Assembly: GCA_023487205.1 (NCBI GenBank)
Contig: JAMDBT010000044.1
Coordinates: 1 to 44,875, forward strand
Direction of reading: 5' to 3'
DNA length: 44,875 bases
Origin: Thermoplasmatota archaeon
GTDB taxonomy: Archaea > Thermoplasmatota > Thermoplasmata > Thermoplasmatales > Thermoplasmataceae
Shown: positions 36,994-41,657 of the stretch, one piece after another
Numbering within the stretch: position 1 is the first letter of the stretch
How the letters are laid out: each line of letters opens with the position of its first letter
Translations under genes and position numbers: made by a program
The notes under the pieces: model-generated
Databases searched by the model: none
What the model saw: only the letters and a program-made list of their open reading frames with translations
What the model was told of the DNA's origin: nothing

Positions 36994-39008
36994 GGTTCAG
37001 ATCTATCGAACTGCACAACATCAGGAGCCATCAACATTCAAGGATCGATTTTCCCGACGGGATTACGCTCATTGAAGGTGATGTGGGATCCGGGAAATCG
37101 TCCATACTGATGGCCATGGAGTTCTCGCTTTTCGCCTCCTCCGATGTCGAGTACGTGGACTTACTGAGGATTGGAGAGGACGCGGGAAGCGTTTCCCTGG
37201 AATTCGAATCGGGTGATGGGAAATACTCGATTTCACGAAGCATAGAGAGAAAGGGTGATTCCCTGAAGCAGAAGAACATGTTTTTGGACCACGGGGGGAA
37301 GACCCAAAAGTTATCCGCTTTCGAGTTGAAGAAGGAAATACTGCGGATACTGGGCTTCAGGGAGGATGCAACTTCCCGATCCAAGAACTGGATTTACCGT
37401 GCAGCCATATTCAGCGCCCAGGACGCCATGAAGGACGTGCTCTCCGACAACTCAGAAGCCAGGCTGAAGATCCTCAGGCGGATTCTTGGGACTGATGACT
37501 ATTCAAGGGCCGCAGCCAATGCGCGCATGATAGTGTCCATGCTTGGCAATGAGGTCTCAAGGCTCGAAGGTATAACTGCCGCGCTTCCGGAGAGGATCAG
37601 GGGAATCGCTGATCTGGAGGAGAAACTGAAAGATTTCGGTTCGAGAATAGCGGAAGCAGAGATGGAGACAGAAAAGCTCCGGAACGCATTTTCGTCCCAG
37701 GAAAAAGTGGTGGAAGAGATCAGAAAGAGAAGGGATTCCATGGCAGAAGCTGAGAGAGAACTTTCCAGAATGGAAGGGGAATACAGGAGGACCCAGTTCC
37801 TCCTCAAGGATGAAGAGTCCACAATAATCCGCAAAACAGGGGACCTAAGGAAGTCAAAGGAGAAACTGGACCGCCTTATGGGTCTCAGGAAACCAGAGGT
37901 AGCCGACATGGAAACAATCCGGGCCAATCTGAAGAGGCTCGGTGATCAAAAGTCAGGGATAATCGCAGAACAGAGATCGCTCTCCGAGAAGATCAGGGAT
38001 TACAGAATAGCCGTGCAGAAAGGAGTATGCCCATTCTGCGATCGTCCAGTGACTGGCACGGATTTTGAGTCGCACCTATTGGAAAAGGAGTCAAGATCGG
38101 AGGATCTGAAGTCAAAGCTTGCCGCGGTGGTCGAAGAGATCGGAAAATATGAGGCGGCTGAGAGGGAATTTTATGCCTACCAAAAGGAGACAGCCGGCTT
38201 TGAAGAACTTCAGTATTCCGTTTCTTCGCTGGAGCGCGACATCGAAGAACTGGGAAAGAAGAAAGAGTCTCTCGATTCTGTCCTGAACGCAGCAGATATG
38301 GAAATCAAGAATTCCAGGGGTAGACTTGGTGATTTCGGGAAGGTGGAAAAAGACCTGAACGAATCGGATAGCCGGCGCAAAGCCATCCGTTTGAAACTCG
38401 ACGACTCGATCTCCCGATCCTCGGACCTCAAGGGCCAGAAATCCCGCGGGCAGGAAGAACTTGACGCAATGAAGGCAGAAGTCGATCGCCTGAAGGGTAT
38501 TGTGAAAAGTGCGTCATTGCTAAGGGAAAAATCATCCTGGGTGAGCACGTTCCTCATTCCTGCCTTCATGGAAATGGAACGATCCATACTTGCCCACCAG
38601 CGCGCAGAGTTTGAAAAATACTTCACTTCCTGGTTCTCCAGGCTGGTATCTGATCCGGAAATAAGCGCAACGGTTGATGAGTCATTCTCCCCACTGATAA
38701 ACTACGGTCAGTTCAACCAGGAAGTGTCATCGCTCAGCGGCGGCGAGAAAACCAGCGTGGCCATTGCATACAGGCTCGCGCTGAACATGCTTCTGCAAAG
38801 CATGGTTGGTTCGCCGGGGGATCTGCTCATTCTGGACGAGCCCACGGACGGATTCAGCTCTGAACAGGTGAGCAAGATGGGGGAGATCCTCCGGGAGTTG
38901 AAGCTGGGGCAGATCATACTCGTTTCTCATGAGGCCGAGATGGAGGTCTTTGCGGATCACGTGATAAGGATCACAAAGGAAAATTCCGTGACCTCTGTGC
39001 TCAACTAG
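36990..39008 (+). CDS. rad50: Rad50 ATPase with short coiled coil
   Basis: A 672-residue SMC-like ATPase that bridges DNA ends with Mre11. Walker A GDVGSGKS (30-37) and the N-terminal lobe are followed by a coiled coil (about 165-345), the zinc-hook CPFC at 347-350, a returning coil (about 360-520), signature LSGGEK (582-587) and Walker B ILDEP with Asp616/Glu617. The hook is at the exact middle, so the protein is complete, but arms of about 170 residues are shorter than in Pyrococcus Rad50 (about 880 residues in all). The start is GTG, overlapping the Mre11 stop by 4 bases. It is convergent with the HTH_10 gene, with a 4-base overlap. Confidence 0.93.
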   Translation: MRFRSIELHNIRSHQHSRIDFPDGITLIEGDVGSGKSSILMAMEFSLFASSDVEYVDLLRIGEDAGSVSLEFESGDGKYSISRSIERKGDSLKQKNMFLDHGGKTQKLSAFELKKEILRILGFREDATSRSKNWIYRAAIFSAQDAMKDVLSDNSEARLKILRRILGTDDYSRAAANARMIVSMLGNEVSRLEGITAALPERIRGIADLEEKLKDFGSRIAEAEMETEKLRNAFSSQEKVVEEIRKRRDSMAEAERELSRMEGEYRRTQFLLKDEESTIIRKTGDLRKSKEKLDRLMGLRKPEVADMETIRANLKRLGDQKSGIIAEQRSLSEKIRDYRIAVQKGVCPFCDRPVTGTDFESHLLEKESRSEDLKSKLAAVVEEIGKYEAAEREFYAYQKETAGFEELQYSVSSLERDIEELGKKKESLDSVLNAADMEIKNSRGRLGDFGKVEKDLNESDSRRKAIRLKLDDSISRSSDLKGQKSRGQEELDAMKAEVDRLKGIVKSASLLREKSSWVSTFLIPAFMEMERSILAHQRAEFEKYFTSWFSRLVSDPEISATVDESFSPLINYGQFNQEVSSLSGGEKTSVAIAYRLALNMLLQSMVGSPGDLLILDEPTDGFSSEQVSKMGEILRELKLGQIILVSHEAEMEVFADHVIRITKENSVTSVLN

Positions 39009-39604
39009 GGCTTGCGGTCCATGTAGAAGGAGACAGACTTCTTCAGGCTCCTCCTCAGGATCTCGGAGAGCGAAGAAGGAGAAATATCCAGTTCCCTTGC
39101 GAGTTTGGTAAGGGATATCCTCCCGGAGTCCTCAAAGTAGCCCTTATCCATTGCCATCCTGAGTATTTCCCTTTCCCTGTCCGTAAGCTCGTGGTGATTG
39201 TAGGAAATAACACTGATTATGTCGTAAGATAAGCCGGCCGCTTTCAGTTGTTTTTCAAGAGATCTTAGATCTCCCGGCGAAGGAAGAAGGACCCTGTACT
39301 GTACCCTGTATCTTCCTGCTGACCTCGTACCCATAATGTTGGAGAAGGTCTTTGAGAAAAAGGAACACGAGGAGCAACTTGCCGACTCGACCCAGAGGGA
39401 GCTGTTTCCGGCCCTCTTGGCCCTGAATCCGGCAGTGTTCAGGACCCTGATTGCTTCCTCATTGTCGTGTCCGGAGACCCTGTGTATTGTTCGCCTGGTA
39501 CCTATAGAAAGGCGTTCAATCTGGAACCCGTCCATGGGGAGAGTATTGGTAATGAGGCAATCGTTGCGCTCAACTTCCAGGATAACCTCAATCTGCCCCT
39601 TCAT
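39005..39604 (-). CDS. HTH_10 (bacterio-opsin activator-like) transcriptional regulator
   Basis: A 199-residue regulator. Residues 1 to about 130 resemble the N-terminal sensory domain of Bat-like proteins (GQIEVILEVERNDC; CSSCSFFSKTF, a cysteine pair that could hold metal or sense redox; YRVQYRVLLPSPGDL). The C-terminal HTH_10 domain reads LTDREREILRMAMDKGYF, then ISLTKLARELDISPSSLSEILRRSLKK. The ATG at 39604 is preferred because the family begins here and a TTTAAAA box (39634-39640) lies about 33 bases upstream; a GTG at 39631 is possible. It is divergent from the cupredoxin gene, with a perfect palindrome between. Confidence 0.85.
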   Translation of the reverse strand: MKGQIEVILEVERNDCLITNTLPMDGFQIERLSIGTRRTIHRVSGHDNEEAIRVLNTAGFRAKRAGNSSLWVESASCSSCSFFSKTFSNIMGTRSAGRYRVQYRVLLPSPGDLRSLEKQLKAAGLSYDIISVISYNHHELTDREREILRMAMDKGYFEDSGRISLTKLARELDISPSSLSEILRRSLKKSVSFYMDRKP

Positions 39605-39633
39605 GAGAGTCCTGATATTAATTGCCTTCACCC

Positions 39634-39640
39634 TTTTAAA
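39634..39640 (-). promoter_or_regulatory. TATA box of the HTH_10 regulator
   Basis: TTTAAAA on the minus strand, about 33 bases before the ATG at 39604. A second box-like CTTTTAAG lies at 39647-39654. Confidence 0.45.
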
Positions 39641-39665
39641 TGTGTACTTAAAAGAAAAGAGAAAG

Positions 39666-39681
39666 ACCTTACCTGTAAGGT
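39666..39681 (+). promoter_or_regulatory. Perfect 7-2-7 palindrome, candidate operator
   Basis: ACCTTAC-CT-GTAAGGT is a perfect inverted repeat between the divergent HTH_10 and cupredoxin genes. It ends 7 bases before the TATA-like TTAATT (39689-39694) of the cupredoxin gene, where archaeal activators and BRE-blocking repressors act. The HTH_10 protein is the natural candidate to bind it. Confidence 0.65.
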
Positions 39682-39688
39682 TAGTTGC

Positions 39689-39694
39689 TTAATT
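39689..39694 (+). promoter_or_regulatory. TATA box of the cupredoxin gene
   Basis: TTAATT centred about 25 bases before the ATG at 39717; leaderless. Confidence 0.5.
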
Positions 39695-39716
39695 TTGACA
39701 TGTCACTACCAAATAT

Positions 39717-40370
39717 ATGGACAAAGATAATTGGCTCTTTCCAGTAATAGCAACCTTGCTTGTGATCATCGTTGGCGCGGGGGTGGGCTATGTGCTGGAA
39801 AATATAGGTCATTCCCAGGCCTCAGGATCAAACGAGTATCATCTTAACCTTGTCATTACGACGAACAATTATTACAACGCCTCTGTCGGATACCAGCCTG
39901 CCTACTTCGTACTTTCCGGGGGCAAACTTGTCTCAAGCGAGAATATTACCCTGCCTTCGAACACCCTGATCATGGTGACCATATTCTGTTTTGATGCCGG
40001 GAACGGAACTCCGGCCCCGCAGTTCCTTAAGGTCGCAGGCACAATTGGAAACCAGGAATTCATAATTAACAACACAAATGTCAATTCCACCGGAACCGGA
40101 TCCGGAATCAACGTGGTTGGCGGAAAGGAAGTTTCAAGCGTCAACCAGTCTGTTGTTGCTCACACCTTCACAATAATCAACTTCTTCGGGTCGGGCAGCG
40201 ACCTTAACATTCCCGTTCCTGAGTCATCCGTAGTGCAGGCTTCCTTCAACACCGGATCGTCCGGAACCTTCGCATGGCAGTGCGAGGTGCCCTGCGGAAC
40301 CGGATCAAGTGGATGGGACGGGTCCATGGCGTCCGCGGGCTGGATGCAGGGAAACGTAATAGTTTCCTAG
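39717..40370 (+). CDS. Membrane-anchored cupredoxin-domain protein
   Basis: A 217-residue protein with an N-terminal membrane helix (about 8-28) and an outside beta-rich domain that ends in a copper-site-like region: HTFTI with His149, then WQCEVPCG with Cys189 and Cys193, then GWDGSM (Met204) and GWMQG (Met210). C-x3-C is the spacing of the CuA site of oxidase subunit II, but the following HxxM is missing, so a single type-1-like copper or an altered site is more likely. The sulfocyanin pattern does not match. It probably carries electrons on the outer membrane face. It is divergent from the HTH_10 regulator and followed by a T-run (40376-40383). Confidence 0.75.
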   Translation: MDKDNWLFPVIATLLVIIVGAGVGYVLENIGHSQASGSNEYHLNLVITTNNYYNASVGYQPAYFVLSGGKLVSSENITLPSNTLIMVTIFCFDAGNGTPAPQFLKVAGTIGNQEFIINNTNVNSTGTGSGINVVGGKEVSSVNQSVVAHTFTIINFFGSGSDLNIPVPESSVVQASFNTGSSGTFAWQCEVPCGTGSSGWDGSMASAGWMQGNVIVS

Positions 40371-40537
40371 TCACTCTTTTTTTCCACCAATTTCAATTTT
40401 CTGGACGCCAGGTGCTGTTTTGCGATGTAAAGAAGAAAGATCAGCCCTGCAATAAACAGAAACACAGTATTTTTCCGGCCGGGTTTCTCGAATTCCCCCG
40501 AAACTTTGCCCGGCTCTATTCCGCATCTAATGTTCAT
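40367..40537 (-). CDS. Small single-helix membrane protein (56 aa), next to the radical SAM gene
   Basis: A short gene on the minus strand, read directly from the sequence. The product opens MNIRCGIEPGK, has a polar linker (SGEFEKPGRKN), one strong membrane helix (TVFLFIAGLIFLLYIA, about 24-39) and a basic tail (SRKLKLVEKKSD). Its ATG lies 11 bases inside the end of the radical SAM gene, and its stop is offset by one base from the cupredoxin stop on the other strand. The overlap and hydrophobic profile make a real gene likely. Cys5 is its only cysteine. It has no known family and could be a subunit, anchor or substrate for a neighbour. Confidence 0.65.
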   Translation of the reverse strand: MNIRCGIEPGKVSGEFEKPGRKNTVFLFIAGLIFLLYIAKQHLASRKLKLVEKKSD

Positions 40538-41657
40538 ATTCCACCGCGCGCCCGTTGTGCAGCGACTGCTTTATCACAGGGAACTCTGAGCACATAATGC
40601 ATCCGGGATCAGACGAAAGATGGGATCCTGTATATGCAAGAGCCCTCGCACGCGATCCTCCGCACAAATCGAAGAAAGGGCAGAGGGAACATTCTGGGCC
40701 TATGGACTCTCTCGGGAAAGAGAAGTCGTTCCGCATGTACTCTTTCAACGCCGGTGGAAGGCCCTTTCCATCAACCGAGCCAAGTGAGACAGGAAGAAAC
40801 CCACTGGGAAATACGTTCCCGTCGGATGCGAGGAATATGGTTTTTCCTCTGTGAAGACCCGTGGGAGGATGATGATCTTCAGGGTTTGCTGGAGTCTGGC
40901 TCATCCCGTGCAGGTACTTGTACAGGTTTCCGTACCGTATGGTTTCGCACGGGGAGACAAGAACCCTGTTGTAGAACGGTGCTTCCACAGTGCGTATCCT
41001 GATATTCCTGGAGAGATGAACCAGCCAGTGGATCACGTCCTCCATTTCCTGTGGCCTGAGATCCTGCATGCTGTCCCCTCTTCCGGTGTTTATCAGGAAG
41101 AACAATTCCCACACGGGAACCTGCATCTCAACCAGTTTTCCATAAATCTTGGGAAGCTCCGAGACGGTTTCTCCAGCAACCAGCGTGTTGACCTGCACTG
41201 GCAGCCTCATTGCCTTTGCCTGGTCAAGGATGCGTATTGCGTGATGGAATGAACCGGAAACGCCTCTGATCCGATCGTGTGTGGACTCCACACCGTCAAT
41301 GCTTACGGACATGGAAGAAGCGCCATTATCCTTAGCCGCCTTTAGGAAATCAGTGTTGACCAGGGAGGAGGGAGAGGGACTCAGGGAAAAAGTCATACCC
41401 AGCGATCTAGAGAGCTTCATGAAATCCACGATATCGCTCCGCAGCGCTATGTTGCCTCCGGTGTAAATCACGTGAATGTTTCTGTTTGACTCGGATTTCA
41501 GCGCACCAAGGAATTCAGCTACCCGGGAGAGTGCCAGTTCCGGAGCGTTCGAATCCATCCCGGCAGACGCCCTGCAGTGCATGCAAAGCAAATCGCATTT
41601 CCTGGTCAGCTCAATGAATGCAAGGACAGGCGGCATTCTGCTGTTTGCGCTCTCCAC
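40527..41657 (-). CDS. Radical SAM/SPASM protein (TIGR04053-like)
   Basis: A 376-residue radical SAM enzyme. The 4Fe-4S SAM site is C21-x3-C25-x2-C28 (KCDLLCMHCRAS). The second SAM motif reads YTGGNIAL instead of TGGEPL. The C-terminal SPASM-type region holds NVFPSGFLPVSLG, C323-x2-C326, C332 in CGGSRARALAYTG, and C353-x2-C356, enough for one or two auxiliary clusters. FPSGFLP plus CGGSRARA is the pattern of a family related to heme d1/heme-pathway NirJ and AhbD enzymes (TIGR04053); the product is unknown. The GTG start is supported by a TATA-like box about 25 bases upstream. The 56-aa gene overlaps its end. Confidence 0.85.
   Translation of the reverse strand: MESANSRMPPVLAFIELTRKCDLLCMHCRASAGMDSNAPELALSRVAEFLGALKSESNRNIHVIYTGGNIALRSDIVDFMKLSRSLGMTFSLSPSPSSLVNTDFLKAAKDNGASSMSVSIDGVESTHDRIRGVSGSFHHAIRILDQAKAMRLPVQVNTLVAGETVSELPKIYGKLVEMQVPVWELFFLINTGRGDSMQDLRPQEMEDVIHWLVHLSRNIRIRTVEAPFYNRVLVSPCETIRYGNLYKYLHGMSQTPANPEDHHPPTGLHRGKTIFLASDGNVFPSGFLPVSLGSVDGKGLPPALKEYMRNDFSFPRESIGPECSLCPFFDLCGGSRARALAYTGSHLSSDPGCIMCSEFPVIKQSLHNGRAVEYEH

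Follow-up and report, generated by a model that had tools for sequence, protein, structure and literature searches.

Decarboxylation of coproheme is carried out by either AhbD or ChdC (PMC7242693). In Haloferax, the ChdC homologue PitA serves aerobic growth and AhbD serves anaerobic growth, and an HTH-type palindrome lies ahead of ahbD (PMC5746218). AhbD enzymes possess an AuxII motif, CX2CX5CX20-38C, and in those of non-methanogenic archaea one glutamate and two serines replace the AuxI cysteines; at the time of that study, none of these AuxII-only enzymes had been assayed (PMC10452713). A survey in 2010 found hemE and hemH in Thermoplasma and Picrophilus but recognised neither ahb genes nor a coproporphyrinogen oxidase, and it called the route unclear (PMC3004389). 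The radical SAM family described here gives a testable candidate for that gap and, together with a small membrane protein, points to how acid-loving archaea may complete heme.

The radical SAM enzyme of the present locus shares with AuxII-only AhbD of non-methanogenic archaea, a group overlapping TIGR04053, the clade, the CX3CX2C and CX2CX5CX20C motifs, the glutamate and two serines and, in its relatives, the hem-gene context. It differs in falling below the family cut-offs, in lying outside any hem cluster of its own genome, in a host with HemE/HemH instead of the siroheme route and in the overlap with a gene for a small membrane protein. ChdC/HemQ has the same predicted reaction, but its fold is unrelated, it depends on peroxide and it is missing from a sister family with the radical SAM gene in the hem operon. 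HemN is likewise a radical SAM enzyme for oxygen-independent propionate decarboxylation, but belongs to another radical SAM family.

Organization of the locus

The window, which is the whole stretch of 44,875 nucleotides analysed, belongs to a genome of 1.56 Mb in 60 contigs (G000). The ORF list and the profile searches showed four genes lying back to back with the overlaps given in the initial annotation. The radical SAM/SPASM gene (40527..41657, minus strand, 376 aa) has a GTG start. Its stop overlaps by 11 bp the ATG start of a gene for a 56-aa membrane protein with one hydrophobic helix and a basic C-terminal tail (40367..40537, minus strand), and this gene in turn overlaps by 4 bp, tail to tail, the end of a cupredoxin gene (39717..40370, plus strand). 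The cupredoxin is a predicted extracytoplasmic protein of 217 aa with one N-terminal helix. An HTH_10 regulator of 208 aa (39005..39631, minus strand; PF04967, 59 bits against a gathering cut-off of 23.1) is divergent from it. The four genes were indeed found in the span of 39605 to 41657 earlier assigned to them, except that its start takes in only the first 27 bases of the HTH_10 gene. The flank on one side consists of repair genes of HerA/Mre11/Rad50 type, of which HerA and Rad50 were identified by Pfam and Mre11 was assigned by reading; on the other side lies an indolepyruvate-oxidoreductase-like pair.

Family and conserved residues of the radical SAM enzyme

Among NCBIfam profiles the enzyme ranked first with TIGR04053 (295 bits), followed by AhbD (171), AhbC (109), NirJ2 (105) and NirJ (102). 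As the first two scores are under the curated cut-offs (395 for TIGR04053 and 500 for the AhbD profile TIGR04545), the enzyme is called AhbD-like and is not filed as AhbD. Relatives encoded in hem operons scored 487-521 bits on TIGR04053. In a tree of 83 rows, constructed by a quick method with long branches flagged, the window enzyme grouped with 74 AhbD-like rows with 99% SH-aLRT, and the same split set these rows apart from AhbC and from a group of 500-aa proteins. It is placed by this computation in the AhbD/TIGR04053 heme-synthase-like clade, and the kinship with heme-modifying NirJ and AhbD suggested earlier is borne out. Named organisms with relatives of the enzyme include Thermoplasma, Acidiplasma and I-plasma, which makes it very probable that the host belongs to the Thermoplasmatales.

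The enzyme is divergent, with a stem branch of 0.9 changes per site. It keeps 40 of the 42 near-invariant residues, defined as columns with one residue in at least 95% of 100 other sequences. The invariant C21, C25 and C28 form the radical SAM CX3CX2C motif, and C323-X2-C326-X5-C332-X20-C353 fits the AuxII motif. E225, S285 and S335, one glutamate and two serines, stand where the AuxI cysteines would be, their match to the M. barkeri positions being made by motif without aligning that protein. The nearest folds to its AlphaFold model (pLDDT 88.8) were SkfB, BlsE, anSME and SuiB.

Heme biosynthesis genes in the host genome and its relatives

The host genome was found to contain HemA, HemL, HemB, HemC, HemE, HemH and a CopD-like protein, with HemD beside HemC. 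These genes are scattered on other contigs and unlinked to the radical SAM gene of the window. HemN (TIGR00538) had no match in the host genome. Neither HemN nor HemF exceeded the cut-off in any of 61 genomes, host included. The genome encodes a single ChdC, a near relative of T. acidophilum TA0507 (3DTZ). A route in family f1 with the radical SAM enzyme as the sole coproheme enzyme was rejected, as ChdC was found in f1 genomes.

Hem genes lie within about 6 kb of the radical SAM gene in about 26 of the 80 loci, and 12 of these represent the operon of family f3, which reads HemH-HemE / rSAM-CopD-like-HemL-HemC-HemD-HemA-HemB. Searches for ChdC, HemN and HemF gave no match over the cut-off in f3 genomes, which leaves the radical SAM enzyme as the evident candidate in that family. 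Other arrangements are HemB-HemL-HemE-HemH-rSAM-protoporphyrinogen-oxidase-like (L138), rSAM-FAD-oxidoreductase-HemH in a Chloroflexi MAG (L180), HemL-rSAM in Pyrobaculum (L170) and a radical SAM gene adjoining HemA/C/B/L in a Thaumarchaeota MAG (L133). The hem-operon relatives are spread over several archaeal and bacterial phyla and are about 35% identical to the window enzyme. Among genomes at least 90% complete, all 26 that encode HemE carry the short radical SAM gene as well, and eight f5 genomes possess neither HemE nor the short radical SAM gene. Heme synthesis as a whole seems absent from f5.

Within the order, an apparent siroheme-type Ahb cluster was seen in f4 (L119, L120 and L121), while f1 and f3 use HemE/HemH. 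In L119 and L120 a relative of the radical SAM enzyme is part of an apparently full Ahb cluster with an AhbC-like gene, in which AhbA/B are two short Lrp-like genes assigned by reading and not by profile. One archaeal order would thus hold two coexisting heme routes with a related last enzyme.

A CopD/DUF2269-like membrane protein of 160-170 aa adjoins the heme-type radical SAM gene in several phyla (L072:5908-6414, L133:5407-5901 and L205:7126-7608). It could supply the missing oxidase for coproporphyrinogen or protoporphyrinogen. In two further loci (L063:9911-11588 in genome G016, and L149:5983-7655) the radical SAM gene lies between cupredoxin, Rieske and cytochrome b genes upstream and the gene of a Fur-family regulator downstream, a hint that heme synthesis may be controlled by iron.

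Proposed role of the enzyme

The window enzyme is probably an oxygen-independent coproheme decarboxylase of AhbD type, with the overlapping membrane protein as its partner and a separate respiratory module beside it. That it acts on a cofactor, as proposed earlier, is strongly indicated, and this cofactor is very probably heme, in view of the AhbD-like clade, the residues and the relatives in hem operons. The reading as a heme b decarboxylase rests on the 99% SH-aLRT placement, the 40/42 residues and the AuxII-only signature, on the relatives in hem operons and a host with the other Hem genes and without HemN/HemF, and on the way in which the short radical SAM gene tracks HemE across genomes. 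The substrate would be Fe-coproporphyrin III, two propionates of which would be turned into the vinyls of heme b as the last step of the HemE/HemH route. The enzyme may serve under anaerobic or low-oxygen conditions, with the ChdC of the same genome as its aerobic backup, and the division of PitA and AhbD in Haloferax provides a precedent. On the other side, ChdC alone could do the step. The window genome's own hem genes being scattered, the hem linkage is drawn from relatives of about 35% identity, and the proposal is weakened by the divergence of the window enzyme, its scores under the cut-offs and the position of the small protein away from the radical SAM gene in several genera.

A different timing, as in HemN, is unlikely. 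Metal-free coproporphyrinogen III would then be converted to protoporphyrinogen IX, followed by a CopD- or PPO-like oxidase and by HemH as a protoporphyrin ferrochelatase. The lack of HemN or HemF over the cut-off in all 61 genomes agrees with this, and the protoporphyrinogen-oxidase-like gene and HemH that adjoin the radical SAM gene in several relatives fit either order of steps. AhbD, the closest characterised family, however acts on coproheme, the f4 relative lies within an apparently complete Ahb cluster, the route of which runs through coproheme, and f1 genomes also retain ChdC, a coproheme enzyme.

It is less likely still that the enzyme was re-purposed in genus g1 for another change in heme side chains or cofactor, with ChdC making heme b and the small protein marking the new role. 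The long branch, the low profile scores, the isolation from hem genes and the ChdC of the genome would suit such a change, but every cluster ligand and the 40 near-invariant residues are kept, and the small protein also accompanies far less divergent enzymes in other genera.

Two conserved modules

In a second species of genus g1 (G002) all four genes occur in identical order, with a different flank on the radical SAM side. The complete arrangement was found in g1 only; elsewhere the neighbours split into two conserved modules. The first is the HTH_10 gene divergent from the cupredoxin gene, a pair conserved in g1, g7 and g17 (two genomes each). The second is the radical SAM gene followed by a small one-helix protein gene, which mostly overlaps or touches its stop, in g1, g3, g5, g7, g11, g13 and g17 and in L132. 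In g7 and g17 the two modules are on separate contigs or far apart.

The initial annotation had tentatively joined all four genes in one copper/radical-SAM unit, and this is not supported outside g1, where the cupredoxin/HTH_10 and radical SAM/small-protein pairs are usually apart. One unit for copper or respiration is a weak reading and very improbable: the order is conserved in two species of g1, HTH_10 relatives are convergent with the radical SAM/small-protein pair in g5 and a cupredoxin gene is near the radical SAM gene in G016, L149 and L161, but the separation in g7 and g17 speaks against it. The best explanation is that HTH_10 and cupredoxin form a second module, for respiratory electron transfer, which has come to adjoin the heme module in g1. 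The two modules may be under joint regulation there.

The small membrane protein

The 56-aa frame was found at the equivalent position in seven or more genera, where the cysteine motif is kept, and since this neighbourhood recurs across genera it is not a chance ORF. In every pair of frames compared, changes in the third codon position exceeded those in the first and second, as for a coding frame. The consensus is start-P-x-[IL]-x-C-[SAG]-[ILM]-x-P, followed by a short polar stretch, one helix and a basic tail; the only invariant residues are the cysteine and Met1, or the counterpart of Met1 at a non-ATG start. Net charge is higher at the C-terminal side in 16/17 members; under the positive-inside rule this would point to an N-out/C-in topology. 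Comparison with Pfam gave only matches below the cut-off to FtsL_2, YabQ and DUF2973, differing between homologues, and no NCBIfam profile matched. Homologues were found in 20 of the 300 genomes of the class sampled, all within the host family. The protein represents a new, previously unrecognised family limited to the host family among these genomes.

Start codons are ATG and TTG, and ACG at the homologous position in five genomes of g11 and g13. In L071 (G012), L075 (G028), L074 (G014), L146 and L155 an AGGTG-type ribosome-binding site precedes this ACG by 5 nt, and in G014 the open frame holds no ATG, GTG or TTG ahead of it. Judged from these sequences, ACG is the only plausible start in the two genera, and such starts would hide the protein from ordinary gene callers. 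A programmed frameshift fusing the enzyme and the small protein was rejected, as the relative frame differs between genera.

Both the conservation and the overlap of the frame are evident from the computation, and the protein may be translated from the radical SAM mRNA by translational coupling. Our best guess is a membrane-anchored partner, which at the membrane would dock the enzyme or hand on the enzyme's substrate or product. In g9, g12 and g16 the gene lies away from the radical SAM gene. In g16 (L235:553-5562, L236 and L239) a homologue follows ETF beta/alpha genes, and L235 and L236 also have a CydA-like gene upstream.

The small peptide had also been put forward as a possible target of the enzyme. 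Its frame is conserved and tied to the enzyme as that idea implies, but its modification is not favoured. A RiPP-like pair in which the enzyme matures the cysteine-bearing peptide is highly improbable, for although a SPASM enzyme overlaps a small frame with an invariant cysteine and the nearest solved folds include the maturases SkfB, SuiB and anSME, the SPASM fold is common to AhbD, for which SuiB is the top structural match too (PMC10452713), the heme-operon enzymes have the same near-invariant residues and no such peptide, and the peptide lacks an adjacent radical SAM gene in the three genera above, and many radical SAM genes lack the peptide, at odds with a precursor beside its maturase.

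A more elaborate role as a heme or coproheme relay is doubtful. The N-terminal cysteine motif would take the product of the membrane-docked AhbD-like enzyme, weak starts including ACG would set the dose, and a Cys-His-CxxC sensor in the HTH_10 regulator would switch heme synthesis between ChdC and the radical SAM enzyme with oxygen.

Cupredoxin and HTH_10 regulator

H149, C189, C193, M204 and M210 of the cupredoxin are invariant in 40/40 family members, so that the CX3C cysteine pair of CuA (C189/C193) is present throughout. H149 is the sole invariant histidine, and no second CuA histidine is conserved after the CX3C loop in these 40 members; for this reason the protein is called CuA-like and not CuA. 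The incomplete CuA-like site recognised earlier is confirmed. The CX3CG loop and the position of the methionine ligand resemble the CuA domain of cytochrome oxidase subunit II, and cupredoxin paralogues adjoin Rieske and cytochrome b genes. The family often has such neighbours, including at a paralogue locus of the host genome (L082). Unlike that domain, the window protein lacks the second histidine and has extra residues ahead of the methionine, and it had no match to Pfam COX2. An AlphaFold model from five sequences (pLDDT 32) was set aside.

NarO is a Cys-bearing regulator of the HTH_10 class. In the window regulator the cysteine pair noted earlier belongs to a larger group of residues conserved across its family in the sensor region, with an RxDC cysteine, a T[IL]H histidine and SCxxC, and this Cys-His-CxxC set is a possible metal or Fe-S site. 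No DNA site common to NarO-type regulation of ahbD in Haloferax and the window was found. The divergent intergenic region (39632..39716) contains two perfect inverted repeats, CTTTTAA-N8-TTAAAAG at 39633-39654 and the palindrome ACCTTACCTGTAAGGT (ACCTTAC-CT-GTAAGGT) at 39666-39681, which are possible promoter or operator elements. A conserved HTH_10/cupredoxin operator was rejected, the window palindromes being absent in G002, G018 and G034. A second short radical SAM protein (328 aa, TIGR04053 170 bits) is encoded in G014 (L124:4414-6709) and G030 (L123:1495-3792), in a trio with a 152-aa membrane protein and an HTH_10 regulator that parallels the arrangement of the window.
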